Assembly (NCBI RefSeq): GCF_900100385.1
Contig: NZ_FNFC01000018.1
Location: 1 to 32,227, forward strand
Direction: 5' to 3'
From: Halovenus aranensis
GTDB taxonomy: Archaea; Halobacteriota; Halobacteria; Halobacteriales; Haloarculaceae
DNA: 32,227 nucleotides
Positions 653-25,514 of this stretch are shown piece by piece (within the stretch, counting starts at the first letter, position 1; each line of letters begins with the position of its first letter). The notes under the pieces are model-generated. The model had not been told where the DNA came from. It saw only the letters and a list, made by a program, of their open reading frames with translations, and ran no database searches. The position numbers were made by a program, and so were the translations under genes.

Positions 653-1225
653 CTACTCCACCTCGTGCCTGGTTGCAAGCCCGGCAAGATGCGGGGCTTC
701 TTCGGCGATAATCTCCACCGTGGCGAGCTCGACGGCATTCACACTTCCCGGTAGGACGAACACTGGTACGTCGCGGGCGATGCCCGCTGTCGCACGGGTC
801 GAGACGATACGCGTTCGTACCTCCTCCCACGAGAGCCGTCTGAACGCCTCGCCGAAGCCCGGCAGTTCGCGGTCGAAGAGTTCGCTCACCGCGTCCGGAG
901 TGACGTCGTCGACGGTGACGCCCGTCCCGCCCGTGGTGACGGCGAGATCGACGTCCGGCCGATCCAGGCACTCGCTCACTGTGGTCTTGATCCGGACGTA
1001 GTCGTCCGGAACCATCCGGCGTGACGTGACGACGTGACCCGCTTTGATTAGGATACTCGCAATGGCGTCGCCACTGGGATCGGGTGGCGTCTTTTCGACG
1101 CCATCTCCGCGGGACGACGACACGGTAACGATGGCCACGCCCAGCGGGTCGATACAGTCGTGACCGTCGGTATCCGTCGTTCGTCGGTCCGCTACCGGAG
1201 GAAGTTCGCGGTCATTCTGGATCAC
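653..1225 (-). CDS. moaB: MoaB/MogA-family molybdenum cofactor protein
   Basis: 190 residues. MoaB/MogA proteins adenylylate molybdopterin before metal insertion. The MPT-binding fold signatures are visible: TTGGTG at residues 97-102, the DVTPDAV segment just after, GFGEAFRRLS at 123-132 and a C-terminal LPGSVNAVELA. The N-terminus (about 27 residues, acidic) is extended compared with typical archaeal MoaB. The start codon is GTG and overlaps the stop of the upstream CobW gene (GTGA), so translation is coupled. It lies between two COG0523 GTPases and a SufU-like scaffold, an unusual place for a Moco gene. A non-Moco role of this paralogue is possible but unsupported. Confidence 0.85.
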   Translation of the reverse strand: MIQNDRELPPVADRRTTDTDGHDCIDPLGVAIVTVSSSRGDGVEKTPPDPSGDAIASILIKAGHVVTSRRMVPDDYVRIKTTVSECLDRPDVDLAVTTGGTGVTVDDVTPDAVSELFDRELPGFGEAFRRLSWEEVRTRIVSTRATAGIARDVPVFVLPGSVNAVELATVEIIAEEAPHLAGLATRHEVE

Positions 1226-2541
1226 GATAGGTCACCTACCACGAGGCGTTGTTCCATCGGGGGCTGCGACCACTCCATCGTCCCCGGGAACGGATTCTCG
1301 AACGCCTCCCAGTCGTCTTCCATCCCGGTCTCCGAAACGAGGCAGTCGTCGAGGGTATCCACGATGCTGGATTCGTCCATCCCAGCCCCGATGAAGACGA
1401 GTTTCACTTCGCGGTCACCCCACTGTTCGTCCCAGTGGAGGTCCGACCGCGATTCGCGGTAGGACTCGCGCTGGAACTCGGGGAGTGTGACTGCCCACCG
1501 CCCGTTGACCTCGACGTGGGTCTGTGTTCCCGCCTGGCTCAGGTCGAGGGCGTAGCGCTCGCGGCCAGCGACCCACAGGTGGCCCTTGGCTCTGACGACG
1601 GAATCGGGGAACGAACGGAGCCACTCGCTGAAGCGTTCGGGATGGAACGGCCGGTGGCGCTCGTAGACGAACGAGTCGACACCGAACTCCTCTGGTGGGT
1701 GACGATGGTCGTGCGCTTCGTCGTGGCTATGGTCGTGGTCGTCGCCATGTTCGTGACTGTGGTCGTCCGTCTCCGTCTGGCTCTCGTGGTGGTCGTCTGA
1801 ATCGACGTCTGTGCCGTCTCCGTGGTCGGCCGAGAGTGCCTGTTTCCACCGGGCGGAGTCACTCGCCTCGTCTTGGTCGAACCGACCCGTTCCAAGAACT
1901 CGATCCGGGTCGACGGTGCTTTCGGTCGTTTGGACGATGTCGACACCGGGATGGAGTGTTAGGACGACGCGTTCAACCGCTTCGCGCTCTGTCTCGGAAA
2001 CGAGATCGCACTTGTTGAGGACGAGTACGTCGCAGAACTCGACTTGCTCGGCGAGGAGGTCCGACAGCGGTCTGGCGTCGTCGTCTGTCGACTTGAGTGG
2101 GCGGCCATCGACGAACGCCTGATGGAACTGTGCGGCGTCGACCACCGTGACGGTCGTATCAAGATCGTACAGGGCCGACGCACGTGCGGGCGAGACGAAC
2201 CGCTGGGCGATGGGGACTGGATCGCTGATACCCGAGGCTTCGATGACCAGATAGTCGAACTCCTCGTCGACGGCTAAGCGTTGCAGTTCCTGGTCGAGTT
2301 CGTTCTGCAGCCCACAGCAGATACAGCCGTTCGACAGCTCTGTGACGCCGCCATCTTCCATCGAGAGTTCGGAGCCGTTCTCGATGAGGTCGGCGTCAAC
2401 ATTCACCTCGCCGACGTCGTTGACGAGAACGGCGATATCGTACTCCTCGCCGCCGACGGTAAGGAGGTGGTTGAGCAGGGTCGTCTTGCCCGCGCCGAGT
2501 CCGCCACTGAGGATCGTAACCGGGGGTTGGTCGTCAGCCAT
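1222..2541 (-). CDS. COG0523/CobW-family GTPase with His-rich insert (metallochaperone)
   Basis: 439 residues. The family are G3E GTPases that deliver metals (zinc, cobalt or nickel) to target proteins. Visible motifs: P-loop GGLGAGKTT at about 13-21, the metal-binding CxCC (CICC at 73-76), and the nucleotide specificity motif NKCD at about 176-179. A strongly His/Asp-rich segment spans about residues 251-281, with more than ten histidines, before the C-terminal CobW_C domain. Such segments are known in metal-storing members of the family. The ATG overlaps the stop of the upstream paralogue (TGATG), and the gene overlaps moaB. The metal is not decidable from sequence; the NikR next door suggests nickel or cobalt, while family precedent also allows zinc. 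Confidence 0.88.
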   Translation of the reverse strand: MADDQPPVTILSGGLGAGKTTLLNHLLTVGGEEYDIAVLVNDVGEVNVDADLIENGSELSMEDGGVTELSNGCICCGLQNELDQELQRLAVDEEFDYLVIEASGISDPVPIAQRFVSPARASALYDLDTTVTVVDAAQFHQAFVDGRPLKSTDDDARPLSDLLAEQVEFCDVLVLNKCDLVSETEREAVERVVLTLHPGVDIVQTTESTVDPDRVLGTGRFDQDEASDSARWKQALSADHGDGTDVDSDDHHESQTETDDHSHEHGDDHDHSHDEAHDHRHPPEEFGVDSFVYERHRPFHPERFSEWLRSFPDSVVRAKGHLWVAGRERYALDLSQAGTQTHVEVNGRWAVTLPEFQRESYRESRSDLHWDEQWGDREVKLVFIGAGMDESSIVDTLDDCLVSETGMEDDWEAFENPFPGTMEWSQPPMEQRLVVGDLS

Positions 2542-3758
2542 CAGTCGTCAGCCAGTGCGAGTTCGCGCTGTTCGTCGGCGGTGAACGGGTCCGGGTACTC
2601 GTTCCAGTCCTCCTCCATTTCTGCGTCCGAGAGGACACAGTTTTCGAGTCGCTTGATTAGTGTCTCCTGATCGAATTCGCGGCCAATGAACACGAGTTCT
2701 GACCCGCGGTCGCCCCACTGGTCGTCCCAGTCATCCTTGAGACCTGGACGGGCAGCGAGATACTTCTCCTGTTGGGCCTTCGGCAGCGTGGCGATCCACG
2801 TCCCGTTGGGACCGGCCCTGACCGACTGGCCTGCTTTGTCGAGTCCCATTGCGACGTCTTCGCGACCGGCGGACCAGAAAAAGCCCTTCGCGCGGACGAT
2901 TCCGTCCGGAAGGTCGGCGAAGAGAGTAGCGATTCGTTCGGGATGGAACGGGCGGTCGGCGTCGAAGACGAACGAGGTGACCCCGTGTTCATCGGCAGCT
3001 GACTCGTGATGATGTCCGTGCTGGAGTTCACGCTTCCACCCGGCGGACTGGCTTGCTGCCTCGAAATCGAATCGACCCGTGTTCAGGATCTCCCCGGGAT
3101 CGACGGCGCCGTGTTCGGTGCGGATGATCTCCGCGCGCGGCTGGAGCGTCTTCAGGACGGCCTCCATCTCTTCGAGTTCGTCGTCCGGAACGAGGTCGCA
3201 CTTGTTCAACAAGAGGACGTCGCAGAACTCGATCTGGTCCATGAGGGCTTCCTCGGGGACACGATTGCCCTGCGGCTCCATTTCATCGTCAGTGAGCACC
3301 TGTCCGGCGTCGGAACCCTGCCAGAAGCTGTGGGCGTCGACGACACTGACCATCGTGTCGAGTTCATAGACACCCGTCGGGTCGAACTCCGCGTCCTCGA
3401 ATCCGCGGGCGAACGTCTGGGCGACCGGAATCGGTTCGCTGATTCCGGACGATTCCACGAGAAGGTACTCGAAGTCTCGCTCTTCTGCCAATCGCCCTAC
3501 TTCGTCGAGCATGTCGCCACGGAGACGGCAGCAGATACACCCGTTCGACATCTCGATGATCTCGTCGTCGTTCTGTGTGAGATCTGACTCGCGTTCGACG
3601 AGGTCGGCGTCAACGTTCACTTCTCCCATGTCGTTGACTAAGATGGCGGCGTTCAGTTCCTGCTCGCTACTAAGAATGTGGTTCAGCGTGGTTGTCTTGC
3701 CAGCACCGAGGCTTCCGCTGAGAATTGTCACCGGGATCGGGTCGTCGTTGAACGGCAT
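2541..3758 (-). CDS. COG0523/CobW-family GTPase (metallochaperone)
   Basis: 405 residues from Met at 3758 (MPFNDDPIP). An upstream in-frame Met at 3782 adds eight residues that are unlikely, because a TATA-like stretch at about 3786-3796 suits a leaderless start at 3758. P-loop GSLGAGKT at about 15-22, CICC at about 74-77, NKCD in the middle, and a CobW_C domain. The His stretch is short (GHHHES), unlike the downstream paralogue. First gene of the four-gene leftward operon, divergent from nikR at 3857. The protein resembles the COG0523 gene at 25515 closely (shared NKCDLV, RAEIIRTEHGAVDP and FDFEAASQSAGW), so the two may be products of a duplication. Confidence 0.88.
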   Translation of the reverse strand: MPFNDDPIPVTILSGSLGAGKTTTLNHILSSEQELNAAILVNDMGEVNVDADLVERESDLTQNDDEIIEMSNGCICCRLRGDMLDEVGRLAEERDFEYLLVESSGISEPIPVAQTFARGFEDAEFDPTGVYELDTMVSVVDAHSFWQGSDAGQVLTDDEMEPQGNRVPEEALMDQIEFCDVLLLNKCDLVPDDELEEMEAVLKTLQPRAEIIRTEHGAVDPGEILNTGRFDFEAASQSAGWKRELQHGHHHESAADEHGVTSFVFDADRPFHPERIATLFADLPDGIVRAKGFFWSAGREDVAMGLDKAGQSVRAGPNGTWIATLPKAQQEKYLAARPGLKDDWDDQWGDRGSELVFIGREFDQETLIKRLENCVLSDAEMEEDWNEYPDPFTADEQRELALADD

Positions 3759-3856
3759 ACGCCAATTATGAATTTGATACACTAAAATATTAATTATTAC
3801 TGTACAGTGTTGACAAACATAACATAAGATAATAATTTAGGATTAAGACTTAGTAT
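3759..3856. promoter_or_regulatory. Divergent promoter region with perfect 10-bp palindrome
   Basis: AT-rich region between the CobW operon (left) and nikR (right). A TATA-like GATAATAATTT at 3829-3839 is about 25 bases before the nikR ATG, and AATATTAATTA at about 3786-3796 is about 28 bases before the CobW ATG. Both genes therefore look leaderless. Between the two TATA boxes lies a perfect palindrome, ACTGTACAGT, at 3799-3808, a good position for an operator acting on both directions. The regulator is not known; NikR is the obvious candidate because it is encoded here. Confidence 0.5.
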
Positions 3857-4288
3857 ATGAGCGTCGTTAGCATCTCAATGCCCGAATCACTACTCGGACG
3901 CATCGACGAGTTCGCCGACGAACACGGGTACAGTGGCCGGAGCAAGGTCGTACGCGAAGGCACACGAACGCTACTCGAAGAGTTTCAGGGGCGAGATATC
4001 GACGGGCAGAAACAGATGTATACAGTCACGGTGGTCTTCGAGTACTGCCAACCCGCAGTCCAACAGCGTCTCACCGGAGTACGCCACGAGTACGATGCTA
4101 TCGTCTCCGCGACGACCCATGCACACGTCCAAGACCAGTACTGTATGGAGTTGTTCGTCCTTGAGGGGACCACGGAGGCACTATCCGGCTTCGTCAACAC
4201 CGTCCGGGCAGTACCAGATGTTAAAGCGGTGGATTACTCGATTACCTCATTCGAAAGAGATCCCATTGATCAGCACATCGAGTCGTGA
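3857..4288 (+). CDS. nikR: NikR-family nickel-responsive regulator (canonical site)
   Basis: 143 residues. An N-terminal ribbon-helix-helix DNA-binding domain (residues 1-45, VSISMPESLLGRIDEFA followed by YSGRSKVVRE) is joined to an ACT-like metal-binding domain. The four nickel ligands of E. coli NikR (His76, His87, His89, Cys95) are matched with exact spacing by His77, His88, His90 and Cys96. NikR with nickel bound represses nickel uptake genes in bacteria. The ATG at 3857 has a TATA box at the leaderless distance. The gene is divergent from the CobW-MoaB-SufU operon, which it may control. This is one of four NikR-like genes in the window. Confidence 0.88.
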   Translation: MSVVSISMPESLLGRIDEFADEHGYSGRSKVVREGTRTLLEEFQGRDIDGQKQMYTVTVVFEYCQPAVQQRLTGVRHEYDAIVSATTHAHVQDQYCMELFVLEGTTEALSGFVNTVRAVPDVKAVDYSITSFERDPIDQHIES

Positions 4289-4974: not shown

Positions 4975-5363
4975 TCAGTGCTCCGCGAGAAGCATCAGCT
5001 TGACCCGACTCACCGCATCGAAATCGCGCAAGCGATACGTGAGGTCCCGGACTCGCGGTGCCGGTCCGCTGCAGAAGAGTGTCTCGAGACACCACTCTCC
5101 TTCGTGAATATGATTCGTGGTCGTGATGACGTCCTGAAACTGATGTGTACGTCGTGAACCTCTTCGATGACCGCTTCGTGTTCGTAATTGAACGCGATGA
5201 TAACGACGACGTCGCCCTCAATGTCCTCCAGTCTGGTGTGTCCCTCGATGTACTCCTGCATCGCTTCGCGGACGGCACGCGAACGCGAATCTAATCCCTC
5301 TGCCTGCCACGTTTCATCGAACTCGGAGTGGAGGTCGTCGGGGATGTTGAAGCTCGTGCGCAT
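4975..5363 (-). pseudogene. Frameshifted NikR-like CopG regulator at the end of the ECF operon
   Basis: The first 76 residues from 5363 form a ribbon-helix-helix domain (MRTSFNIPDDLHSEFDETWQ, then LDSRSRAVREAM) plus the start of a NikR-type metal domain. At about 5134-5139 the frame is lost. In the next frame the rest of the domain is fully readable to a stop at 4975: QDVITTTNHIHEGEWCLETL, then RDLTYRLRDFDAVSRVKLML. The HIH and WCLE positions match NikR ligands. Removing two bases restores the canonical 11-residue His spacing; adding one base also restores frame but gives 12. The gene lies 4 bases after cbiO, so it was the operon's own regulator. A sequencing error is the alternative explanation. 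Confidence 0.7.
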
Positions 5364-5367
5364 CGGT

Positions 5368-6249
5368 CTACTGATTCAATGATGTGCCGTCGGTAGACGA
5401 AACTCTATTTGGGTCCGGTTCGTCAGCCGTCGCTGTGAGGAGCGACACGAGGTCTCCTTCAGTAACCGGCTGTTCGGTTGCCCCCAGCCCTGCATCGCGA
5501 GCCACACGAACCGCACTCGGCGGGTGAAGGTTCGCTTCCGCCAACAGCGCGTCGTCGTAGAACACCTCCCGGGGCGTTCCGCTTCCAACGACGTTGCCGT
5601 CGGCCATCACACAGACACGGTCTGCGACTTCAGCGGCAAATTCGAGGTCGTGTGTCGAGAGAACGACGCTGATTCCGTCCTCGTGAATCTGCTCGATTCG
5701 GTCAGCAACCAGTTGGGAGCGCTCGGGGTCGAGTCCGGCGAGTGGTTCGTCCAGCACGACCACGCTCGGTTCGAGGACGAGCACACCGGCGAGACCGACG
5801 AGGCGTTTCTCGCCGCCGCTCAGGTAGTGGGGGATTCTCTCTTCAAGATGGCTCGCATCGACGGTCGCGAGCGCCTCACGAGCGCGCTCTCTCGCTTCGT
5901 CACCAGACACCCCGTGATTCTGGAGGCCGAACAGCACGTCATCGAGGACTGTGGGCGCAACGAGTTGCGTATCGGCGTCCTGGAAGACGAAGCCGACCTC
6001 CTTGCGGGCGTGGGCTTTGTTGTCTTCCGTGATCGACGTGCCGTCGACGACGAGTTCGCCGTCGTCGGGAACGAGCGTGGCGTTCAAGTGTTCAAGCAGC
6101 GTCGATTTCCCGGCCCCGTTGCCACCGACGAGTGCGACCACCTCGTCGGGGTACACCGAGAAGTCGACAGCGTGCATACCGACGGTCCCGTCGGGGTACG
6201 TGTGGGCCTCACACTGGAGGTCCACCAGCGGCGCGTCGTCTCGGGTCAT
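5368..6249 (-). CDS. cbiO: ECF transporter ATPase, CbiO/NikO type (Ni/Co import)
   Basis: 293 residues. ATP-hydrolysing subunit of a group I energy-coupling-factor importer for cobalt or nickel. Walker A GGNGAGKST at about residues 42-50, Q-loop FQDADTQLV, ABC signature LSGGEKR, Walker B VVVLDEPLAGLDP and the H-loop STHD are all present, so the protein should be active. The C-terminal tail after the ATPase core is typical of archaeal CbiO. The ATG overlaps the stop of cbiQ by 4 bases. Last intact gene of the order M-N-Q-O. Substrate (nickel over cobalt) is inferred from the flanking NikR-type genes. Confidence 0.9.
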   Translation of the reverse strand: MTRDDAPLVDLQCEAHTYPDGTVGMHAVDFSVYPDEVVALVGGNGAGKSTLLEHLNATLVPDDGELVVDGTSITEDNKAHARKEVGFVFQDADTQLVAPTVLDDVLFGLQNHGVSGDEARERAREALATVDASHLEERIPHYLSGGEKRLVGLAGVLVLEPSVVVLDEPLAGLDPERSQLVADRIEQIHEDGISVVLSTHDLEFAAEVADRVCVMADGNVVGSGTPREVFYDDALLAEANLHPPSAVRVARDAGLGATEQPVTEGDLVSLLTATADEPDPNRVSSTDGTSLNQ

Positions 6250-7058
6250 AGTCCCACCCCGTAAACAGCGACCACCGCGTAGCCGATGACAGCAACATAT
6301 GAACCGACCACGAGGAGGAGTTCGTGGATCGGTGGGCGCGAGACGTCGCCATACAGTGTGAGGTCACCATCGTATCCTCGTGCTTCCATCGACTTGACAA
6401 GGCGTTCGGACTGCTCGATTGCCGATAGCATCGTCATCCCGAGGATTCTCGCGTACAGCCGTTTGTTCGACCAGAACTCCGAGAAGTTCGCACCACGGGA
6501 GAGTGCGGCTTTCACGAGGTTCTCTAGCGTCTCGATCATCACAAAAGTAAATCGGTAGGTGAGCAGCGCGACTTGGTCGATTGGACGAGGAAGCAACCGT
6601 CCGAGCATGTATGCGACATCGGCGTATCTCGTTGTCATTGATGCTGCCAGCGTGAACGTAACGACCGTGAGCGACCGGCAGGCCAGTTCACCGAACAACA
6701 CGAGTCCCTCCCACGTGACTGACAAGCTTCCAAGTGGCGTAGAGAGCGCGCCGACGATTGGCGTTCCTGGTTCGAGAAAGGCAAGCGGCCCCGCGACGGA
6801 GATAATGAATAGCAGTGGCAGCGTGTACCAGCCGACGAGCCGACGGTACGGTAGCCCCGCAACCCCGTAGACTGCCAACACCGAAGCGTATAGCCCTGCC
6901 AAGAGTGCGAGGCGGTCGAACACCGTGACTGCGAGGACGAGTGCACCGACAAATCCGACTTTCGTCCACGGATTGATCCGGTGGAGTGGTCCGTCACGGT
7001 GTTCAGCGAACGCTGTGATCAGCCGTGGGTCGGGGACGTGGTTCGAGAGTGTTGTCAC
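6246..7058 (-). CDS. cbiQ: ECF transporter T-component, CbiQ/NikQ type
   Basis: 270 residues. Membrane coupling subunit linking the ATPase to the metal-binding CbiM subunit. Four to six hydrophobic segments are visible, including VGFVGALVLAVTVF, LLFIISVAGPLAFL and VGSYVAVIGYAVVAV at the C-terminus. The two coupling-helix motifs of the T family are recognisable as ALSRGA and MEARGYDG (the Ala-Arg-Gly type motif). The stop overlaps cbiO, and two bases separate it from the small subunit gene upstream, as expected for one transcript. Confidence 0.88.
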   Translation of the reverse strand: MTTLSNHVPDPRLITAFAEHRDGPLHRINPWTKVGFVGALVLAVTVFDRLALLAGLYASVLAVYGVAGLPYRRLVGWYTLPLLFIISVAGPLAFLEPGTPIVGALSTPLGSLSVTWEGLVLFGELACRSLTVVTFTLAASMTTRYADVAYMLGRLLPRPIDQVALLTYRFTFVMIETLENLVKAALSRGANFSEFWSNKRLYARILGMTMLSAIEQSERLVKSMEARGYDGDLTLYGDVSRPPIHELLLVVGSYVAVIGYAVVAVYGVGL

Positions 7059-7060
7059 GG

Positions 7061-7384
7061 TTACTGCGCCTGGCGTTCGCCGTCCTCAAACCCGCCATAG
7101 CGGTCGACGTAGACGTACAGACCGATACCGAGGACAACCAGCAGCGCGACGAGTGCGCCGAACTCGAACATCATGCCGCCTTTGCGAATCGGTCCGGCGA
7201 CGACAATCCCGCGGCCGGCATCAATCAGCGGCCCACCCCCGTCCTTTACGCCGCGCTGCAGTGCTTTTGCGGAGCGTTTGGCCCACGGAAGCGCGCCACC
7301 GGTTGAACTGAATCCCCACAGGCCAGCGGCCAGACAGACACCGAACAGTCCAGCGAGGCCACCGTACTGCTTCCAGCGCTGCAT
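7061..7384 (-). CDS. Small membrane subunit of ECF Ni/Co importer (PDGLE/CbiN-like)
   Basis: 107 residues with one hydrophobic helix near the N-terminus (YGGLAGLFGVCLAAGLWGF) and one near the C-terminus (FGALVALLVVLGIGLYVYV), joined by a glycine-rich extracytoplasmic loop. Size, topology and the place between the M and Q genes match NikN/CbiN or PDGLE-domain subunits, which assist metal loading of the S-component. The sequence itself is poorly conserved, so the assignment rests mainly on position. The ATG overlaps the stop of cbiM (TGATG arrangement). Confidence 0.75.
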   Translation of the reverse strand: MQRWKQYGGLAGLFGVCLAAGLWGFSSTGGALPWAKRSAKALQRGVKDGGGPLIDAGRGIVVAGPIRKGGMMFEFGALVALLVVLGIGLYVYVDRYGGFEDGERQAQ

Positions 7385-8064
7385 CAGGCGGTCACCCCTG
7401 CGGGCTCTTCGCGGTCTTTGCGGTCAGCGAGGTCGACGAGATCGGGCCGGACTGTCGCCAGGAACTGCACGATGAAGCCGGTCAATACCCCCTCGATGAC
7501 GGCGACGCCGAGGTTGAGTCCGACGAGTCCGCCAACGGCGACAGTCAGATCAGCCCTGGGCAGTGCACTACCGTTGACACCGCTGACGACGATGATCGCG
7601 CCCATCAGTATTGCGCCAGAAGAGAGGCCAAGCGTCGCAGCACTCGCGCTCGCGGGGAAGGTGTCCCAGTCCAGTTGGATGAGCGTCTTGAATGCGTAGT
7701 AGGCGACGATCGCTTCTGACGCGTTGACGAGTGTGTTTGCTCCGATTAGCCCGACAGCCCCGTGGCCGAGTGCTGCCGAGAAGATGTTAACGACCAGTGC
7801 GATGAGTGCCCCGAGGAGTGGCCCCGCGAGGATGCCGACGAGACCGGTGAGGTTCATGTGGATGCCACCCCACACCGGGATATTCAGCTGGAAGATCGCG
7901 AAACTCGCGGCCGCGCCGATACCTGCGAGCGCGATCTGGTGTGTCTTGATGCCGCCTTTCCGGACTCGGTAGACGACAGCACTGATCAATCCGGCACCAA
8001 TCAGCGTCCAGAGTACCAATGCCCATAACGGGAACGACCCTTCACCGAGGTGAATGTGTGCCAT
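7384..8064 (-). CDS. cbiM: ECF transporter S-component, CbiM/NikM type (metal-binding)
   Basis: 226 residues, about seven membrane helices. CbiM/NikM binds the metal with its N-terminal amine, His2 and a second internal His. Here the N-terminus is MAHIHLGEGSF instead of the usual MHIxxG. If the initiator Met is removed before Ala, His becomes residue 2 and the site is restored; the GEG part aligns with an offset of two residues. The internal ligand is likely His69 in VWGGIHMNLTG. First gene of the ECF operon, 138 bases downstream of a NikR-like gene, with its own promoter region between them. Confidence 0.88.
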   Translation of the reverse strand: MAHIHLGEGSFPLWALVLWTLIGAGLISAVVYRVRKGGIKTHQIALAGIGAAASFAIFQLNIPVWGGIHMNLTGLVGILAGPLLGALIALVVNIFSAALGHGAVGLIGANTLVNASEAIVAYYAFKTLIQLDWDTFPASASAATLGLSSGAILMGAIIVVSGVNGSALPRADLTVAVGGLVGLNLGVAVIEGVLTGFIVQFLATVRPDLVDLADRKDREEPAGVTA

Positions 8065-8135
8065 GTCTGATTGTTATTTCTAGCACCGATACTAATAAAC
8101 TTAGTGTACTGGAATAACTAGAGTAGCAACTTTGA
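8065..8135 (-). promoter_or_regulatory. cbiM promoter with TTGCTA-type motifs
   Basis: On the minus strand a TATA-like TTTATTA lies at about 8091-8098, some 27-34 bases before the cbiM ATG. A motif readable as GTTGCTACTCTAG on the minus strand (8118-8130) differs by one missing base from GTTGCTAACTCTAG upstream of the second importer (13216-13229). A further partial site (TGCTAGAAA on the minus strand) is at about 8077-8085, between TATA and start. These are candidate operators for a NikR-type regulator; no experiment is implied. Confidence 0.45.
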
Positions 8136-8202
8136 TGTAAGTGCCTAACAGATGTTGGCAGAATGCGAGAGTCAGCTCTCGTTTGCGCAAGTGATGTCGA
8201 AC

Positions 8203-8634
8203 CTATTGCTCGCTTCTCTGTGGGTCCATGACATCGATGGGCACGACCGTGTATTCGACTGAAACTGACTCGTCTGCTCCTCGTACAGTCCCAATAAATT
8301 GCAGAGCGTCGTGGTACGCGGCCTCGATGACGAACGTCTCGACACAGCCGGCGTTCTCTTCGAGGCAGTTGTGGGAGTTCGACCGAATCGGCGCTTCGAA
8401 TTCGTGGCGGATATCCATCATCCGGCGTTCAATCTCCGGCTCGTCGTATCCGAAGACAGCGGTGACTGTCGCCAGCACCCGCTGATCCTGGTACTCTGTC
8501 TCTTGATACTCTTCGAGCAGTGACTGACACGCTTCGCGGATGACCTCACTCCGTCCGCTGTAGCCGTGTTCTTTCGCAAATGTATCGAGATCGTTTCGGA
8601 GTTGCTCTGTCATCGAGGAGCTCACGATGGGCAT
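8203..8634 (-). CDS. NikR-like regulator with altered metal site
   Basis: 143 residues: ribbon-helix-helix domain (residues 1-45, with YSGRSEVIREA) plus ACT-like metal domain. Of the canonical ligand set His-His-His-Cys, His77 and His88 are kept, but the third is Cys90 and the fourth cysteine is shifted by one residue to Cys97 (HNCLEENAGC). The site is thus His2Cys2, which should change metal preference or affinity. It lies immediately upstream of the ECF importer in the same orientation, so it is the likely regulator of that operon. Its promoter carries a TATA-like stretch at 8657-8668. It is called NikR-like instead of NikR because of the changed ligands. Confidence 0.82.
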   Translation of the reverse strand: MPIVSSSMTEQLRNDLDTFAKEHGYSGRSEVIREACQSLLEEYQETEYQDQRVLATVTAVFGYDEPEIERRMMDIRHEFEAPIRSNSHNCLEENAGCVETFVIEAAYHDALQFIGTVRGADESVSVEYTVVPIDVMDPQRSEQ

Positions 8635-8668
8635 ATATATTAAATATTGTCTCGAAGATAATAGTAAT
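8635..8668 (-). promoter_or_regulatory. Promoter of the 8634 NikR-like gene with ATATTAAATATT repeat
   Basis: A TATA-like stretch lies at about 8657-8668, 23-34 bases before the ATG. Between it and the start is ATATTAAATATT (about 8637-8648). Nearly the same sequence (AATATTAAATATT at about 13851-13863) precedes the NikR gene starting at 13832. This could be a shared autoregulatory or simply an AT-rich promoter element. Confidence 0.35.
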
Positions 8669-8773
8669 AGTGGTCCAAACTTATTTTATTAATAACTATG
8701 CAGTAACAGAGTTTCAGTGGCTAGTGTCGCCAGGGCTTCCAAGCTCGTCTCTAAACGAAAAGCAGCGCGAGTT

Positions 8774-8795
8774 CCCCGCCCCACCGTGGGCGGGG
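8774..8795. repeat. Left-end hairpin of the IS200/IS605 element
   Basis: Perfect 8-bp stem (8774-8781 with 8788-8795) and a 6-base loop CACCGT, 11 bases beyond the tnpA stop. Such hairpins are recognised by TnpA. Confidence 0.65.
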
Positions 8796-8805
8796 GTGAA
8801 GCGCG

Positions 8806-9212
8806 TCACTCCGGCGCGTGTTCTGTCTCTTCGATATACCGTTCAACCACTTCCTCCGACACCGCTCCTGTCGTCCCAACGTAGTACCCAACCTTCCAGA
8901 ATCCGCCACCCCAGAAATACGACTCTCGAATTTCGGGATACCGCTCCAGCAAGTGCTTTCCTGAGTACGACTTGAATTGTCGAGCGATGCCGCCGGACTG
9001 TGCTTCGGGTCAGTTTGCACGAACAGGTGTACGTGGTCGTCCGCGATCTCCAACGCCAGAATTTCGTGTCCGAAGTGGTCAGCAGTCTCACCAAACAACG
9101 CTGGCACATCCTCCTCCACTATATCCAGAACCGGGTGTCGATACTTCGGGCACCAGACGAAGTGATACTTGCAGGAACTAACCGAATGTGCATGACTACG
9201 GTACTCTTCCAT
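8806..9212 (-). pseudogene. tnpA: IS200-type HUH transposase TnpA, frameshifted
   Basis: Starts at 9212 (MEEYRSHAHSVSSCKYHFVW). The HUH metal motif is HVH at residues 60-62 (ADDHVHLFVQ). After about residue 73 the frame is lost at about 8990-8995. The next frame continues the family exactly: GIARQFKSYSGKHLLERYPE, then FWKVGYYVGTTGAVSEEVVE and RYIEE to a stop at 8806. One base appears to have been lost. In this family the nucleophilic tyrosine is in the C-terminal helix, here probably the Tyr of VVERYIEE, so the truncated product would lack it. An alternative is a sequencing error in the GC-rich stretch. Confidence 0.8.
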
Positions 9213-9256
9213 TCCTAATCCATACATTTATGACAGTCTGGAACGGTTGTCAAAGC

Positions 9257-10561
9257 ATGGGTGAAGAAGACACGAAGACGATTCAGACGCGCCCTCACAT
9301 AGCGTCTGGTGAACGGTCGTGGCTTCACGATGCCCGCCTCGTGTCACGCGAGATTTTCAACGACACTATCCGCCTCACACAACGGGGATACACGCGCACC
9401 GAGATACAGAAGGAGGTTGACCGCGACGACTTCTTGCGGAACAATAAGTGCGCGGTTGTCGGAAAAGCCCTCCAAACATGGGACTCCTACCAACCACTCA
9501 AAGAATGGTGGGAGAACCAAGACGACCCTGACGGCGGGAAGCCGACGCCGCCGAGTACGGACAAATCTGGTGCATACCCGCTTGTGATGGCGCACACAGA
9601 AGGCTACCGCCTCACCGTGGACGACAACACGAACCGCATCCAGTTCCGCATCAGCCCGAGACCCTACAAAAAGGTGAGAGGCCACCTGCGCGGCGAACCG
9701 GACGCGATGGACGAACTTCGAGAGGCCATCACGTCAGACGAGGTGGATGTGGGGCAGGCCGAACTCCTGTACCGCGATGGCGTGTACTACCTACACGTCA
9801 CGGTCACACGCGAGTTCGACGTGCCCGAACCCGACACCGCCGATACTGTGATCGGCGTGGACATCAACGAGCGCAACGTCGCACTCACCGCCCTTGACCG
9901 CGAGACGATGCAGACGAAAAGTACACTCGTCCTCGATTACGGACGAGTCAAGCAGGAACGCCAACGCTACCACACCATCACGAAACGGTGTCAGGAACAC
10001 GGCAAAACGAGTATCCACCACAGACTCGGTGACAAGGAGGAGCGGTTCACTGAGTGGGTGTTACACCGGCTTTCCCGCGCTGTCGTGGAGTTTGCAGAGC
10101 AGTTCTCGAATCCGGTTATCGTGTTCGAGGATATGAGCGGCATCCGCGACGAAATCAAGTACGGGACGTATATGAACCGCCGGTTGCACAAACTGCCGTT
10201 CCACAAGTTCGAGAAGTTTGTCTCGTACAAGGCGACGTGGCGAGAGATCCCCACGGATACAGTGGATGCGTACTATAACTCCCAGACGTGTTCGTGCTGT
10301 GGTGAGTGTGGAGATCGGCAGGGACGGCGGTTCCGCTGTCCGAACGACGAGTGTGACGTGGTGCAAGACCACGCTGACCGGAATGCATCGGTGAACATCG
10401 CGTGGCGTGAGAAGGCGAAACTTGACGGCGACGAATTAAACTGCCGGACTCACAAAACCCAGCCGCAAGTCAGGTTGGTGCGTCTGTCTGGGTCGGGGCG
10501 CGTAAGCCGCCCAACCTCATCCCGCTCGCTCGCCGAGCAGGGAGTGCTCGCTCAGGGCTGA
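9257..10561 (+). CDS. tnpB: TnpB, IS605-type RNA-guided nuclease
   Basis: 434 residues from 9257; in-frame Met at 9230 is an alternative. TnpB proteins are RuvC-type nucleases guided by an RNA that comes from the 3' end of the element. The three RuvC acidic residues are present: Asp202 in [10 protein letters not shown], Glu291 in [11 protein letters not shown], and Asp374 in [13 protein letters not shown] zinc ribbon (CSCCGECG, later RCPNDEC) lies between the last two. The full-length frame and intact catalytic set suggest an active nuclease, although the partner TnpA is broken. The reading frame runs up to the right-end hairpin, where the guide RNA of related elements is encoded. Confidence 0.9.
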
Positions 10562-11353
10562 GGGAACTACAAAAGCCTCGGGCCACCGCGCCCGAGGTTG
10601 TTTACTCCGCGCGACGTGATCCACGAAGTCACGAGAGGTCCGTTCACGTTGGCGTTCTAACTCAATGGAGAACGTCGACTGCACGGTTCCCGGGTCGGCA
10701 TCCATGACGACCACGCGATCAGCGAGGGTCACTGCCTCGTCGATGTCGTGGGTGACGAACACGACGGTCTGTCCGGTTTGCGTCCAAATATCGAGCAATT
10801 CGCCGTGCAAGCGGTCGCGCGTCCGAGCGTCGACACTACCGAACGGTTCGTCCATCAGGAGTATCTCCGGATCGGGTGCGAGCGCGCGAGCGATACCGAC
10901 GCGCTGTTTCATGCCGCCGGACAGTTCCTTCGGGTACGCGTCCTCAAAGCCGTCGAGCCCTACCAAGTCGATTAACTCCCGGACCTGTGCCTCGCAGTCG
11001 GGACAGTCACAGGCGGGCCGGTCAAGGCCAAACCCGATATTCCCGCGGACGGTTCGCCACGGGAACAGCGCGTACTCCTGAAAGACCATTCCCCTGTCCA
11101 GCCCAGGACCGGTAACCGGGTCTCCACCGACCAGTATCGACCCACCATCCGGATCGTCAAGCCCGGCGATTGCTCGCAACAACGTCGTCTTCCCACACCC
11201 CGAGGGACCGACGACACAGCAGAACTCGCCCTCCGACACCGAGAACGAGACGTCATCGAGCGCCTGCGTCGACTCGTATGACCGGCTGACGTTCTGGATA
11301 GTGATCTTCTCACGTGAGTCTCGACCGGTAGACGAGTCCGAACTCAGCGCCAT
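10517..11353 (-). pseudogene. NitT/TauT-type ABC importer ATPase with IS-derived C-terminus
   Basis: 278-residue frame. Walker [10 protein letters not shown] at 49-57, Q-loop FQEYALFPW, signature LSGGMKQR at about 144-151, Walker B ILLMDEPF and the H-loop THD are intact, so the nucleotide domain is complete. The last 30 or so residues, after about VDHVARSK, are encoded by the right end of the IS200/IS605 element, including its hairpin and the antisense of tnpB. The native C-terminal helix has been replaced; activity is uncertain, so the call as a broken gene is a judgement. An unusual CDCPDC segment (Cys115, Cys117, Cys120) sits in the helical subdomain. Start ATG at 11353 overlaps the permease gene. 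Confidence 0.65.
10576..10597. repeat. Right-end hairpin of the IS200/IS605 element
   Basis: Perfect 8-bp stem (10576-10583 with 10590-10597), loop CACCGC, 15 bases after the tnpB stop. The region just upstream, overlapping the 3' end of tnpB, is where the TnpB guide RNA scaffold would lie. Confidence 0.65.
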
Positions 11354-12186
11354 GCGAGGACCCTCCGTTCGAGTAGTCGGAACCCGACGTCCATACAGAG
11401 GAACGCCAGGCTGATGAGGAACATGTAGGCGACGCTAGTCGCCATCGCGAGGTTGTTCGAGGCGTTGATGATCTCGTAGCCGACGTCTGGTGCGCCGAAC
11501 AGCTCGGCACCGACGACGATCATCCAGCAGCGACCGATGCTCGTCCGGAACCCCGTCAGCACTTGGGGTGCCGCACTCGGGAGCGCGACGAGTTTCAGCA
11601 TCGAGAGGTCACGCTCGACTCCGAGCGTCGATGCGGCATCGGTCAGTTCGGTCGAAACGCCCTCCACGCCGCCGTAGGCGCCGTAGAAGTTGATCCAGAA
11701 CGCGCCGACGAAGACGATGAACGCCGCGCCAGTGTGGTGGATGCCGAACCAGACAATGGCGAAGACGACCCACGCCAGCGGCGGGATCGGTCGCAGTACC
11801 CGAACGAGTGGTCGCAGCCAGTCGTCGAGCGCACCGTTCCAGCCCATCGCAAGGCCGAGACTGATGCCACAGAGCGCGCCGAGGAGGAGCCCCGGCACGT
11901 AGTGGAACAGCGTCTGTGCGAGGTGTGCGAGCCCAGTCGGGAGTACGAGACTCGACCCCAGAACGGGAACTACAATCGCCGTTGAAGTCGCAAACAGCTC
12001 TATAAACGCGTGCACTGATTGGAGGGGGCCCGGAACCAGATACGATGGCTGGGTCGTCATCGCGCCAACCCACCAGACGAGCAGGAACACGAGGAGACCA
12101 CCCAAGCCGCGGAGATACCGCCGCAATCCCCCCTCGAAGCTGCCGGCGACCACCGCGTTGGAACTGGTGTCGGTACGTGTACTCAT
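11344..12186 (-). CDS. NitT/TauT-type ABC importer permease
   Basis: 280 residues with about six membrane helices (for example [44 protein letters not shown] and [18 protein letters not shown]). The cytoplasmic EAA-type coupling loop is readable around [20 protein letters not shown] followed by [12 protein letters not shown]. This is the fold of SsuC/TauC/NrtB permeases. The ATG overlaps the stop of the binding-protein gene and its end overlaps the ATPase gene, so the three genes form an operon. Substrate cannot be read from sequence; the flanking NikR-type genes and shared promoter motif suggest a metal or metal complex. Confidence 0.85.
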
Positions 12187-13211
12187 TCCTGAATGGCGTC
12201 GTAGGGGTCGAACGCGAACAGATTTTCAGTTGCGACCGGATCCTCGATGTTGCCGACGTTGGCAACGAACTCGCCCATCGTCGCGGTCTGGTCGGTGATC
12301 GCGTGCGGGTCCGAGACGAACTCTGATGCCTGAGAGTCCATGGCCGCCGTCGCGAGGTCCTCGCTCACGCCGGAGCCGATGACCGAGGCGGCGTGGGCGG
12401 CGGTTGCATCCGGTGAGTCCGCCGTGAACTCGGTCGCTGCCACGTGCTGTTCGACCAGCGATTGGGCAACCTCACTGTCGTCGAGCACGTGCTGGTTCGC
12501 GAACAGCACCGTGACCGGGTGGTCTTCCAGTATATCTCCAGACCAGACGAGTTCGCCGAAACCGTCATCTTGGCCGATGACCGTCGCGAACGGTTCCTGA
12601 ATGATCGTCGCGTCGATATCGCCCGACTGGATCGTCTGGACCGCCTTCGCTGGCGGGACTTTTGACTTGTTGATTGCGGACTCCATCTCCCCCACGTCCA
12701 AGTCTTCCTGGATCCAGTATCTGAGGACGATGTCGGGGACGCTCCCGTCCGGTGGGGCACCGAACCGGACCTTGCGGCCGCGCTATTGCTCGAAGCGCTC
12801 GAACATGGCTGGGCCTTCCTGTTCGTAGAAATCGACGAGTTCGGTCGTCCCCATGATCTTGAAGCCATTTCTCGAGTTCGCCGCGAGGATCCCGGCGTTG
12901 GTCCCTTTGTCAACGAGGACCATTGCAGGAGTGATCCCGAAAAGCGCAACGTCGACGTCCCCACTCGCGAACGCCTTGACAACACTGGGGCCGGAGCTGA
13001 ACCGCTCTATTGAGACATCTGCCGGAACGTCCTCGTAGTACCCCTCTTGCTCCATCACGTAGTGTTGCATGTTCGGGTAAATCGGGACGTACGCGACCGT
13101 GACGGAATCGAGTGATGCACCTCCCTGACCGAGACAGCCAGCAATTCCCGTCGCACCAATCGTGGTTGCGCCTGCCTTCTGGAGTAGTCTTCGGCGCGAG
13201 ATTTGAACCAT
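12183..13211 (-). pseudogene. NitT/TauT-type substrate-binding lipoprotein with in-frame amber stop
   Basis: 342 codon positions from 13211. The N-terminus is a twin-arginine lipoprotein signal: SRRRLLQKAG at 5-14 and lipobox TGIAGC with Cys26. The periplasmic-binding fold follows (VTVAYVPIYPNMQHYVMEQE, then FASGDVDVALFG). Codon 143, at 12783-12785, is TAG after MFERFEQ. The same frame then continues without any shift (RGRKVRFGAPPDGSVPDIVL) to the normal stop at 12183, which overlaps the permease start. One base change from CAG or GAG would explain it. Unless read through, the importer lacks a full binding protein. Confidence 0.8.
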
Positions 13212-13314
13212 CAGTGTTGCTAACTCTAGAAGTATTTCTAATAATAACAGTGATTCTAGCAAAGGTGGTTAATACTGATAGAGGATAGATTTCGGAGATG
13301 TTGCTAGAGTTAGC
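13212..13314 (-). promoter_or_regulatory. Importer promoter with repeated TTGCTA motifs
   Basis: TATA-like TTATTATTA on the minus strand at about 13239-13248. Three copies of the hexamer TTGCTA/TAGCAA occur: 13217-13222 (plus), 13257-13262 (as TAGCAA) and 13301-13306 (plus). The 11-mer GCTAACTCTAG at 13219-13229 is the exact inverse of CTAGAGTTAGC at 13304-13314. The first site lies between TATA and the start codon, a typical repressor position. The same motif occurs before cbiM. Confidence 0.5.
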
Positions 13315-13403: not shown

Positions 13404-13832
13404 TCAGTTCATATCGGCCAGCGGGCCAAAGTCGTCGACGGGTAGCACTGAGTAGTCGATTGTGAGCGTGTCCTTCGTCGCTCGGATCTTCCCGACGAAC
13501 GTCGAGATCTCTTCGAGCGACCCCTCGAGTACGAATAGTTCCATGCAATGATGGCCGCCGACGTGACTATGGAAGTTTGAGGCGACAATATCCTCATGCT
13601 CGTGGCGGAGGTGCATCATCTTCTCCTCGACGCTCGTCGTTTCGTAGTCGAAAAGAACTGTCACGACCCCCATCAACTCTCGATCTTGGAGTTTCTTGTC
13701 CTCGAACTCACTGAGGAGATCCCGGCTTGCCTCACGAAGTACTTCACTGCGACCAGTATAGCCGTGGTCGTCTGCAAACTGGTCAATTTTATTAAGCAAC
13801 TCTTCTGGCATCGAAACACTGACTACACTCAT
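13404..13832 (-). CDS. nikR: NikR-family nickel-responsive regulator (canonical site)
   Basis: 142 residues from the ATG at 13832, which aligns with the MSVVSISMPE start of the first NikR; the longer in-frame extension to 13955 is AT-rich promoter DNA. Ribbon-helix-helix domain at 1-45 ([28 protein letters not shown]), then the ACT-like domain. Ligands His77, His88, His90 and Cys96 have the exact E. coli NikR spacing. A TATA-like stretch overlapping AATATTAAATATT at 13851-13863 lies before the start. It is upstream of the NitT/TauT-type importer in the same direction, 192 bases apart, with the TTGCTA motif region between. Confidence 0.88.
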
Positions 13833-16873: not shown

Positions 16874-18334
16874 TCAACAAACAGCGACCGCATTCTCTGC
16901 TAAACTAGAACGCATGATCTGTGCTGTTTGCTCTTCGTTGGCTGCCGCAATGTCATCGATCTCCTCGGCCATCTCGTCAAGTTCGTCAACGAGGCTATCT
17001 ATCGAACTGGCAACTTCCTCGGTTGTCGCCGCCTGATCATCTGTCGCGTCGGACACTTCTGTGATACCTTGTGCAACGTCCTGGACACTTTCAACGATAT
17101 CGCCGAGATCACCCATCGTCTGTTGGACTTCTTCCATACCCTTGGCGACCTGTTCGGTGACTTCTTCGAGACTTTCGGCTGTTTTTCTGGTATCGCGCTG
17201 TGCCTCATCAATTGTCTCCTCAATCTCGGCAGCGTTCTGCTTTGATTCACTTGCCAGAGATTTGATTTCGTCTGCCACCACAGCGAAGCCTTCGCCCGCT
17301 TCTCCCGCGCGCGCCGCTTCGATACTCGCATTGAGCGCGAGCATATTTGTCTGCTCAGCAACATCGTTGATCACACCTGAGAACTCGTTGACTTCCTCCA
17401 TCCGGGACTCGAGTGACCCCATCTCTTCGGTGACTTCTGTCACTGCTGCGCTGATATCTTGCATCGCTGCAAGCGCATCTTCAGCAGATTCCTGTCCAGA
17501 ATTGGCACGTTCTTGGGCCGTATCGCTCGTCTGGTGAACCTCGCTTGCCGTCGATGCAATCTCTTCGATGGTCGCGCTCATCGTCGAGACCTCGCCAGCA
17601 ACATCCTCCATCGAGTCCACTTGCTGTTGGACTGCATCGCTCACTCGTGTCGTGCTTTGTGTCACGTCCTCTGCAGCATCGGAGACGTCCGAGATTGGCG
17701 CTTGGAGTTCGGATGAGACACGTTCTATCAGTTGTTCCTGCTCGTCCATCGTGTCTTTGACCTGCTTGTTGTACGAGTTGATGTAGGTGTCCATCGCCAC
17801 CTGCTGGTCAAGATTGATGAGCTTTTGCACAGCGAGTACTCGGTCAACAAGTGTATCGATTGTCTCCTTGGCGACTTGGCCATCAAGACTCTGCTTCAGA
17901 TCGTCAGCGATTGCATCAATGATGCCACGGTAATAGATGCTGTAGACTCCAAAGTAGATCTTCGGCCCCAAATCGAGCATATCGTGTATCTTCCCGATTC
18001 TTGCACGCCGTTGGAAGTATTTCATGCCGTATTCGCCCTGACCGAGTTCCATCAGATACTGCCGCTGATCCCGTTTCAGAGCCTCGATTGGTCTCGACGA
18101 GGAATCCATAATTGAAATCGTTTCGTCGTAGCTCTGGAGGTGTTGATAGAAGTCGTCAACGAGATCTTCAGAAATATCTTCGAAAATGTGGCTAATAGAT
18201 TCGAGTTGCGCAATATCTTCGTCAGTAAAGTTCGTGTACTCTTTCCGCCACTGGATTTCTTCCTGGTCAATCCCGATTTCGCTCGTCAACGCTGCGCCAT
18301 CCACCATTTGCCGCTTCTCATCGGTTATCTGCAC
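16874..18334 (-). CDS. hemAT: HemAT-type globin-coupled aerotaxis transducer
   Basis: 486 residues. An N-terminal sensor globin (about residues 20-185) contains the likely proximal heme His117 in ARIGKIHDMLDLG. A long coiled-coil methyl-accepting signalling domain follows, with the hairpin tip EQTNMLALNASIEAARAGEAG and GFAVVADEIKSLA that contact CheW/CheA. There is no membrane segment, so it is a cytoplasmic oxygen (or NO) sensor for taxis. The start is GTG at 18334, supported by a TATA box about 27 bases upstream; Met at 18310 is the alternative. It flanks the NO-synthase/KatG block, but no chemotaxis partners are in the window. Confidence 0.9.
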   Translation of the reverse strand: MQITDEKRQMVDGAALTSEIGIDQEEIQWRKEYTNFTDEDIAQLESISHIFEDISEDLVDDFYQHLQSYDETISIMDSSSRPIEALKRDQRQYLMELGQGEYGMKYFQRRARIGKIHDMLDLGPKIYFGVYSIYYRGIIDAIADDLKQSLDGQVAKETIDTLVDRVLAVQKLINLDQQVAMDTYINSYNKQVKDTMDEQEQLIERVSSELQAPISDVSDAAEDVTQSTTRVSDAVQQQVDSMEDVAGEVSTMSATIEEIASTASEVHQTSDTAQERANSGQESAEDALAAMQDISAAVTEVTEEMGSLESRMEEVNEFSGVINDVAEQTNMLALNASIEAARAGEAGEGFAVVADEIKSLASESKQNAAEIEETIDEAQRDTRKTAESLEEVTEQVAKGMEEVQQTMGDLGDIVESVQDVAQGITEVSDATDDQAATTEEVASSIDSLVDELDEMAEEIDDIAAANEEQTAQIMRSSLAENAVAVC

Positions 18335-21540: not shown

Positions 21541-22653
21541 ATGCATTCCCCTGCCTCAACGTATGGACCAAGAGACCGCTATGAAGCAGCAGAAAACTTT
21601 CTCCGCCAGTGTTACAAAGAACTGGGTCGAGAGGGAGATGTTGAGTCACGACTGAAAGAGGTCTGGACATCAATTGGTCGTCAGAACCATTACGTTCACA
21701 CAACAGCAGAACTCGAGCACGGGGCCAAAATGGCCTGGCGCAACAGTAACCGCTGCATTGGTCGGTACTTTTGGGACAGTCTCCACGTGCTTGATCGACG
21801 GGGGATTGACACAGCACAAGGGGTGTACAATGCTCTGATTGAACATATCGACTTCGCAACGAACGATGGTAATATCCGACCCACGATATCAGTGTTTCCT
21901 CCTGCTGTCAGGGGAAACCAGCAGGTCCGTATCTGGAACCATCAGCTACTACGCTATGCTGGGTACGAAACAGAGAATGGTGTCATCGGTGACCCTAACT
22001 CTGTGGCGCTAACTGACTACTGTCGATCCCGTGGATGGTCCTCTCAGCGTACGGACTTTGACATCCTGCCGTTGGTGATTCAAGTTGGCGACAAGACACC
22101 AGAGCTATTTGAAATCCCTGACGACGTAGTGATGGAAGTTCCTCTTTCACACCCAAATTATCAGTGGTTCAGCGACCTTGGTCTTCAGTGGTACGCAGTT
22201 CCTATCATCTCGGATATGCGCCTAGAAATTGGCGGTCTCCAGTATCCCGCTGCGCCGTTCAACGGCTGGTATATGGGAACCGAAATTGGAAGCCGCAATT
22301 TCGGAGACGTTGACCGCTACGATATGCTCCCAACGGTGGCTGACCAGCTAGGTTTGGATACATCGACCGATCGGACGCTGTGGAAAGATGAGGCACTAGC
22401 AGTACTTAACCAGGCTGTGCTTCACTCATTCGAGAAGCAAGGAGTGCGGATCGTTGACCACCACAACGCGGCAGAGCAGTTCAAGCGATTCGAACAGGAA
22501 GAACGAGAGGCAGGCAGGAAGGTGACAGGAGAACGGTCGTGGCTTTTGCCGCCAAACGCATCCTCAACCGTGCATATTTTCGAGAATACATACGAGAACG
22601 AAATCAGGACGCCAAATTTCTTTTATCGCGAAGATCCGCCCCCGTTGCAATGA
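21541..22653 (+). CDS. nos: Nitric oxide synthase oxygenase
   Basis: 370 residues, the size of bacterial-type NOS, with only the oxygenase domain and no reductase. The heme-ligating cysteine is Cys72 in AWRNSNRCIGR. The arginine-binding Glu248 is in NGWYMGTEIGSRNF, and the pterin/dimer region is recognisable in RTLWKDEALAVLNQAVLHSF and LLPPNASSTVHIF. The enzyme oxidises L-arginine to citrulline and NO using an unlinked electron donor. Neighbours are a small zinc protein upstream and katG downstream, with a cysteine-containing HTH-10 regulator divergent, which together suggest a NO/oxidative-stress locus. Confidence 0.93.
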   Translation: MHSPASTYGPRDRYEAAENFLRQCYKELGREGDVESRLKEVWTSIGRQNHYVHTTAELEHGAKMAWRNSNRCIGRYFWDSLHVLDRRGIDTAQGVYNALIEHIDFATNDGNIRPTISVFPPAVRGNQQVRIWNHQLLRYAGYETENGVIGDPNSVALTDYCRSRGWSSQRTDFDILPLVIQVGDKTPELFEIPDDVVMEVPLSHPNYQWFSDLGLQWYAVPIISDMRLEIGGLQYPAAPFNGWYMGTEIGSRNFGDVDRYDMLPTVADQLGLDTSTDRTLWKDEALAVLNQAVLHSFEKQGVRIVDHHNAAEQFKRFEQEEREAGRKVTGERSWLLPPNASSTVHIFENTYENEIRTPNFFYREDPPPLQ

Positions 22654-22732
22654 TGACAACGCAACAGAGGATGGTGGGCATGGATGCTGACTGTGAGTTG
22701 GAATTGGGTAGATATTTCGTAAACTAATATAA

Positions 22733-24988
<2,256 letters not shown>

Positions 24989-25450: not shown

Positions 25451-25514
25451 AATTAACAACAATGTTTTTTGAATAGCCAATTATAAATAATATACGCTCT
25501 AATCTTAATAACAG
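25451..25514. promoter_or_regulatory. Short divergent promoter between S14 paralogue and COG0523 gene
   Basis: TATA-like TTATAAATAATA at 25481-25492 is about 27 bases before the COG0523 ATG and, read on the other strand, about 30 bases before the S14 start, so one AT-rich core may serve both genes. A small inverted repeat AACA-N4-TGTT is at 25457-25468 (AACAACAATGTT). With only 64 bases, a single regulator could control both directions. Confidence 0.45.

Follow-up and report, generated by a model that had tools for sequence, protein, structure and literature searches.

The window considered here, a stretch of 32,227 nucleotides from the haloarchaeon Halovenus aranensis (contig NZ_FNFC01000018.1, positions 1 to 32,227), carries copies of the hexamer TTGCTA upstream of two importer operons, one headed by an NMT1-type solute-binding protein (SBP) gene and the other by cbiM, and on balance we favour the view that these copies belong to a conserved composite operator for metal uptake in some Halobacteria, bound by NikR-type regulators. 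The elements hold defined positions in promoters, are conserved among orthologues, are enriched before importer genes and are linked to nikR-type genes. The NMT1-type operon is a putative metal importer.

The copies lie where a first-pass annotation of the window had placed them. The two long ones, GTTGCTAACTCTAG at 13216-13229 on the plus strand before the 13211 gene (the NMT1-type gene) and GTTGCTACTCTAG at 8118-8130 as the reverse complement (minus strand) before cbiM, differ by one inserted base; shorter copies are TAGCAA at 13257-13262, TTGCTA at 13301-13306 and, in partial form, TAGCAc at 8081-8086. The window holds 9 occurrences of TTGCTA where 4.5 are expected, at least 9 being reached in 1 of 100 shuffles, and the three copies in the 195-bp region 5' of the 13211 gene are matched by 1 of 1000 dinucleotide shuffles. 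The single copy in the 141-bp region 5' of cbiM is unremarkable (matched by 160 of 1000 shuffles), and the best local alignment of both upstream regions is equalled by 104 of 1000 shuffled pairs. On the evidence of the window alone the sharing of the motif is insecure; it is secured by the orthologous promoters, but these change which copies are equivalent.

In alignments of orthologous SBP and cbiM promoters, constrained islands stand in fixed order between variable spacers. The SBP alignment holds 19 de-duplicated rows, loci L046, L047, L048, L052, L075 and L076 having been dropped beforehand as too diverged, and the cbiM alignment holds 23, L089 and L098 having been dropped before counting; counts within both were made by eye, and family counts elsewhere retain the dropped loci. 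The SBP order is E1 (CTAGCAACATCT), U (AGTATTAAC), E3 (AATCACAG), TATA box (TATTATTATAA) and D (GAGTTAGCAACAC), followed by the start codon. In the window, all on the minus strand, E1 reads CTCTAGCAACATCT (13296-13309) and includes the 13301 copy, U reads AGTATTAAC (13268-13276), E3 reads AATCACTG (13248-13255; most orthologues have AATCACAG, and AdcA-type ZnuA genes are preceded by AAATCATAG), the TATA box is TTATTA (13239-13244), and D reads GTTAGCAAC (13216-13224), 4 nt 5' of the start codon of the NMT1-type gene. The consensus of D, which is situated between TATA box and start codon, is RTTRNYAAY; its position reads TTANYAAY in all 19 SBP promoters, with the exact TAGCAA in 11, and TAGCAA likewise stands at the E1 position in 11 of 19. 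The copy at 13257-13262 (minus strand) appears as TTTGCTAG in 3 of the 19 rows and, retained only among close relatives, is probably incidental.

The order before cbiM is U (ATTGTTATC), E3 (TACAGCAAC), TATA box (TTTATTATAAT) and D (AATTGGCAAAC). In the composite operator generally, U lies some 57-66 nt 5' of the start codon, and E3 adjoins the TATA box. The cbiM copy of the first-pass annotation is U, which reads GTTGCTACT in the window (8122-8130, minus strand, as are the following) and mostly ATTGTTATC or ATTATTATC in orthologues; among the 23 promoters the window alone has an exact TTGCTA there. The E3 position (8100-8108) holds a degenerate TACACTAAG where TACAGCAAC is common in orthologues, the TATA box is TTTATTAG (8092-8099), and the D position (8070-8078) reads AATAACAAT, which does not satisfy RTTRNYAA, against a ATTGGCAAA-type sequence in orthologues. 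An SBP-type D is present at cbiM of L073 (GTTAGCAAC) and L098 (GTTAACAAC), and the U position of cbiM reads GTTGCTAAC in L152, GTTACTAAC in L153 and GTTAACAAC in L150. Because of the L152 and L153 sequences at U, we take U and D to be variants of one near-palindrome, RTTRNYAAY. The claim that the same motif precedes both importers therefore survives in that the orthologues show constraint beyond chance, although the copies originally compared differ in position, one being D and the other U; likewise, the possibility of a chance motif is answered by conservation across orthologous promoters. Two narrower definitions were set aside: TTGCTA as a conserved core, which is variable inside among orthologues whereas RTTR..AAY is kept, and the exact 13-mer as operator (TTGCTANCTCTAG), which with one mismatch has 2 matches in its own genome against 6 for the control.

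Two further promoters of the window, both on the plus strand, show related layouts. Before the NikA-like binding-protein gene at 27981 (promoter elements at 27917-27976) stand U (GTATTAAC, 27917-27924), ATTAACAAC (27937-27945) and D (ATTGATAAG, 27968-27976). The third COG0523 gene of the window, at 25515 (promoter 25452-25512), has a U-like ATTAACAAC at 25452-25460 and a D-like CTTAATAAC at 25504-25512 that fails the strict form of the rule given below, in a layout which by eye is like that of the L150 cbiM promoter.

The association of D with importers can be expressed as a simple rule that asks for a TATA-like hexamer between -44 and -22 and for RTTRNYAA no more than 16 nt from the start codon. 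Candidate starts in the 81 loci number 16,700; the TATA part is present in 287 and the D part in 61 of these, which include many orthologues and alternative starts and so are non-independent, against a mean of 3.0 and a maximum of 30 for 400 permuted motifs. The rule also returned genes that had not been inspected earlier, namely ZnuA/AdcA-like binding proteins (PF01297) and the NikA-like gene of the window. De-duplicated by family, it holds for 18 of 25 SBP, 21 of 28 CbiM, 8 of 9 AdcA-type ZnuA and 2 of 3 other ZnuA promoters; none of 72 later genes of both importer operons follows it, nor does the window's own cbiM. Promoter profiles match in register, TATA box included, for SBP with CbiM (z 3.9), SBP with ZnuA (3.5), SBP with nikRb (3.2) and CbiM with nikRb (3.7). 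As a universal detector the SBP D profile was rejected, finding the element in 6 of 9 AdcA-type ZnuA, 8 of 28 cbiM, 0 of 24 nikRb, 2 of 61 nikRc, 0 of 16 nikRa and 4 of 17 nikRd promoters.

At the scale of whole genomes the same arrangement is sparse and falls largely on importers. TTATTA-N12-16-RTTRNYAA-N2-7-ATG has 4 matches in the window's genome and none for the control, and all four precede importer binding proteins: the 13211 gene, the NikA-like gene and two of four ZnuA genes. A slightly stricter pattern gives 38 matches in 116 genomes against 4 for the control, comprising 13 ZnuA, 9 NMT1-type, 3 CbiM and 1 COG0523 gene (L186), 4 membrane proteins, 5 others and 3 unclassified; identified importer or COG0523 genes follow 26 of the 38. 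Two of the membrane proteins were tested and match ZIP below the Pfam cut-off and nothing in NCBIfam, the other two being alike by resemblance, and the five others are an integrase, a TctC-type gene, two sites without a gene and one lacking assignment (genome G145), which lies less than 200 bp from a ZnuA match on the opposite strand. Further controls in 112 genomes, holding 33 of the 38 matches, gave 7 matches with a wrong ATG distance, two of them less than 200 bp from opposite-strand ZnuA matches, and 9 with a T/A-swapped motif, eight of which are one recurrent site. A version without the start codon, allowing one mismatch, was discarded at 46 matches against 30 for the control in 40 genomes; it is with the start codon added that the 38 against 4 are obtained. 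In an unbiased sample of all 87 ZnuA-family matches in 69 genomes (one cut by a contig end; by model names the family includes manganese importers too), 8 follow the rule; permuted motifs average 0.68, and 8 is attained by 3 of 400. The association of D with ZnuA is present and limited to a minority of ZnuA-family genes. Loci L170, L171, L172 and L173 each encode, outside the gene block of the two importers, a membrane protein of 286-287 amino acids with a TATA+D promoter; the start codon lies at about locus position 1533 of the strand that matched, and both of these proteins that were tested show a weak ZIP match.

A NikR-type gene is present in 385 of 391 genomes, and both importers of the window adjoin such genes, as the first-pass annotation had proposed and NikR_C domain matches bear out. 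nikRc (13404-13832, minus strand) matches the ribbon-helix-helix (RHH) profile RHH_1 with 24.3 bits (cut-off 20.5) and NikR_C with 78.7 (cut-off 22), and it alone has both domains above cut-off; nikRa (3857-4288, plus strand) scores 74.2 for NikR_C and 20.3, just below 20.5, for RHH_1, and nikRb (8203-8634, minus strand) scores 33.5 for NikR_C with no RHH_1 match. Both nikRc (86.4 against 105, and 82.8 against 83 for PRK02967.1) and nikRb (53.4 against 119) fall below the NCBIfam NikR equivalog cut-offs and on these scores are related to the named equivalogs without belonging to them. The closest solved structure for nikRc is 2bj1 (7.8e-19), which we take to be the Pyrococcus horikoshii NikR, and for nikRb it is 2wvd (5.9e-11), presumably that of Helicobacter pylori. 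Aligned to 2bj1 and 1q5v and read by eye, nikRc has the four nickel ligands (His, HxH, Cys), presumably H76, H87, H89 and C95 in E. coli numbering, and the same ligands were found by eye in nikRa and the universal NikR0. The first two His ligands are kept in nikRb, with HxC plus a Cys shifted by one residue replacing HxH...C, a change that suggests a different metal or geometry.

The promoters of the NikR-type genes themselves contain related half-sites in a different arrangement. In nikRc/NikR0 promoters an inverted repeat, ATAACAA-N25-TTGTTAT, flanks the TATA box; at the 25-nt gap at least 5 of 7 pairs are found in 37 of 66 promoters, and at other gaps in 0 to 19 of 66 (19 at gap 15, TATA box included). 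In dyad tests with 40 permutations each, the nikRc profile reaches 9.41, the 95% null being 6.11, and nikRb, nikRa and nikRd lie slightly over threshold. The right half of the nikRc/NikR0 repeat is identical to U of cbiM (ATTGTTAT).

In the mechanism we propose, metal-loaded NikR-type ribbon-helix-helix regulators would bind D, U and E3; a regulator seated on D would exclude the transcription machinery, and U and E3 could anchor additional dimers. According to one report (PMC8155600), transcription of Haloferax volcanii znuA1 begins 4 nt 5' of the gene's start codon, and if transcripts of the target genes start in the same way, these genes would be nearly leaderless and D would lie between the TATA box and the transcription start. 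Upon metal starvation the repressor would be released and unrelated importers turned on together. We infer that a NikR protein is the binder, repression the effect and zinc a signal; repression by the metal-loaded form and release under starvation are assumed because this is known NikR behaviour.

Several results weigh against this reading. The rule was framed after SBP and cbiM promoters had been inspected, and 27 of the 116 genomes hold a match to the stricter pattern; a general ZnuA or zinc regulon was rejected at 8 of 87 ZnuA-family genes. The CbiM and ZnuA promoter profiles match best out of register (offset -27), the SBP D profile places its top-scoring site at D in 8 of 28 cbiM promoters (mean of the null 1.0, maximum 4), and the dyad is borderline for SBP (7.87 against a threshold of 7.71) and below threshold for cbiM (6.84 against 7.01). 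The COG0523 genes of the block carry D in 0 of 17 cases, the conserved nickel ligands of nikRa, nikRc and NikR0 fit nickel equally, and 45 of 80 nikRc loci have no SBP, CbiM or ZnuA gene within 1.2 kb downstream. Others of these results also favour an alternative in which the operator is real and belongs to another metalloregulator (Fur-, DtxR- or other RHH-type), the nikR genes being neighbours with an operator of their own: importer-type D occurs at 1 of 124 NikR-type genes; ZnuA beside NikR0 fails as a general rule, being found in 3 of 69 genomes, all of one genus (G082 and, with a fragment, G014 are further cases beyond that sample); and genome G070 (88% complete) has a motif-bearing cbiM promoter with no NikR found. 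We consider this alternative unlikely, since U of cbiM is a half-site of the nikRc/NikR0 inverted repeat and an SBP, CbiM or ZnuA gene lies at most 1.2 kb 3' of nikRc in 35 of the 80 loci, while 0 of 45 downstream starts at the remaining loci pass TATA+D, with open reading frames that were picked mechanically, many of them not genes.

A narrower form of the NikR reading put forward in the first-pass annotation, with a NikR operator responsive to nickel or cobalt and confined to nickel and cobalt importers, seems to us doubtful to the same degree. It draws on the NikR_C domains with conserved His/His/His/Cys ligands, on targets that include CbiMNQO and a NikA-like importer, and on the absence of D from the zinc-chaperone-like GTPase genes of the block, and is countered by ZnuA being the commonest class among the matches (13 of 38), by the D of the COG0523 gene L186 and by weak matches to ZIP in both genes tested. 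What stands of the NikR reading is that the site is not chance and has NikR-type neighbours; a purely nickel/cobalt operator is doubtful since D precedes some ZnuA genes, and the nikR promoters differ in arrangement. In the composite operator that we favour, zinc is a likely signal, as the ZnuA targets suggest, with cobalt/nickel importers also under the operator; CbiM, the NikA-like gene and the conserved ligands speak for nickel/cobalt, D is absent before the ZigA-like GTPase genes of the block, and a multi-metal regulon is possible. More tentatively, NikR-type regulators in part of the Halobacteria might be a counterpart of Zur for zinc uptake (ZnuABC, ZIP-like and energy-coupling-factor type systems), acting by way of an operator that sits between TATA box and start codon, with paralogues a to d, one of them bearing HxC, dividing the metals.

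It is very unlikely that these are merely common parts of the haloarchaeal core promoter (transcription factor B recognition element, TATA box, start region) of AT-rich intergenic DNA: D does sit at a site of the transcription machinery, and TATA boxes add to profile similarity, but among TATA-bearing starts D is nearly restricted to importers, TATA-bearing nikR promoters lack it, and genome-wide matches are sparse and importer-enriched. Least probable of all is shared ancestry alone, with the block moving as a unit among haloarchaea, sometimes on plasmids (it is present in plasmid entries for Halovenus salina, Haloarcula rara and Halorientalis marina), and the promoters as recent copies, for although the block is syntenic, spacers diverge while elements stay, and the element is common to importers of several types that are not homologous, among them ZnuA genes that lie away from the block.

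The block runs in the order nikRc, SBP/permease/ATPase operon, nikRb, cbiM-N-Q-O, nikRd remnant and, last, nikRa, which diverges from a pair of COG0523 genes, an order that recurs in other haloarchaea. On the minus strand, the solute-binding protein gene (12183-13211; NMT1/SsuA/TauA type) is followed by permease (11344-12186) and ATPase (10517-11353) genes, and cbiM (7387-8064) by cbiN (7064-7384; assigned by position and synteny only, without a family match), cbiQ (6249-7058) and cbiO (5371-6249). The N-terminus of CbiM begins MAHIH, the canonical start of CbiM being MH, and the mature N-terminus is possibly AHIH. The two COG0523/CobW GTPase genes (1222-3782, minus strand) have promoters without D; the one at 2541-3782 matches a ZigA zinc-metallochaperone model below cut-off. 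At several loci the GTPase genes are followed by a gene resembling ZnuA. The window's block looks worn. An in-frame TAG interrupts the NMT1-type gene at 12783-12785, where aligned orthologues have no stop, so that this binding-protein gene is probably inactive, or the stop a sequencing error; the nikRd remnant (5010-5363, minus strand; RHH match slightly below the Pfam cut-off) loses the reading frame of its orthologues beyond residue 75 or so; an IS200/IS605-type pair at 8751-10561, Y1_Tnp (matching the first half of the profile only) with a TnpB-like protein bearing a Cas12f1-like_TNB domain, lies between the importer ATPase gene and nikRb; and E3 and D at cbiM are degenerate. Elsewhere in the window a Protoglobin domain is fused to a methyl-accepting chemotaxis signalling domain (16874-18334), and a gene with a nitric-oxide-synthase oxygenase domain adjoins a peroxidase-family (PF00141) gene (21541-24985).

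A simple sequence rule that selects importer genes from whole genomes yields a testable regulon, gives tentative roles to unassigned importers such as the NMT1-type and CbiM-like systems, and points to a family of nickel regulators that may have been recruited to other metals. Judged by title or the start of the abstract, none of the papers listed in our open-access searches describes this operator, a haloarchaeal zinc- or cobalt-uptake operator or a haloarchaeal zinc-uptake regulator. As with bacterial Zur, ZnuA-type zinc importers would stand under a metal-linked operator; Zur, however, is a Fur-family protein, whereas most ZnuA-family genes here lack the element and the linked regulator is of the ribbon-helix-helix NikR type. 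The E. coli NikR operator is GTATGA-N16-TCATAC (PMC7055735), and the systems are alike in having a NikR-type regulator beside an importer and half-sites 22 bp apart centre to centre, as are U and E3 of cbiM (9-mers 13 nt apart). The half-site sequence differs, in keeping with the earlier remark that the site is unlike that of E. coli (with at most 3 mismatches, 6 matches in the window against 8.4 expected), and the main element here lies between TATA and start codon. The delta-proteobacterial NikR sites GTGTTAC-N13/14-GTAACAC, occurring in reversed orientation too (PMC545781), are not in excess in the window (2 and 0 matches with at most 3 mismatches, against 0.93 and 0.75 expected), and the haloarchaeal promoters differ from them in the 25-nt gap of nikRc promoters, the GTTAGCAAC-type importer element and the ZnuA genes among the matches. 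Nevertheless, their TGTTA/TAACA core resembles the TTGTTAT/ATAACAA halves described here, and those sites too, reported in both orientations, lie 5' of a CbiM-like (NikMNQO) transporter.

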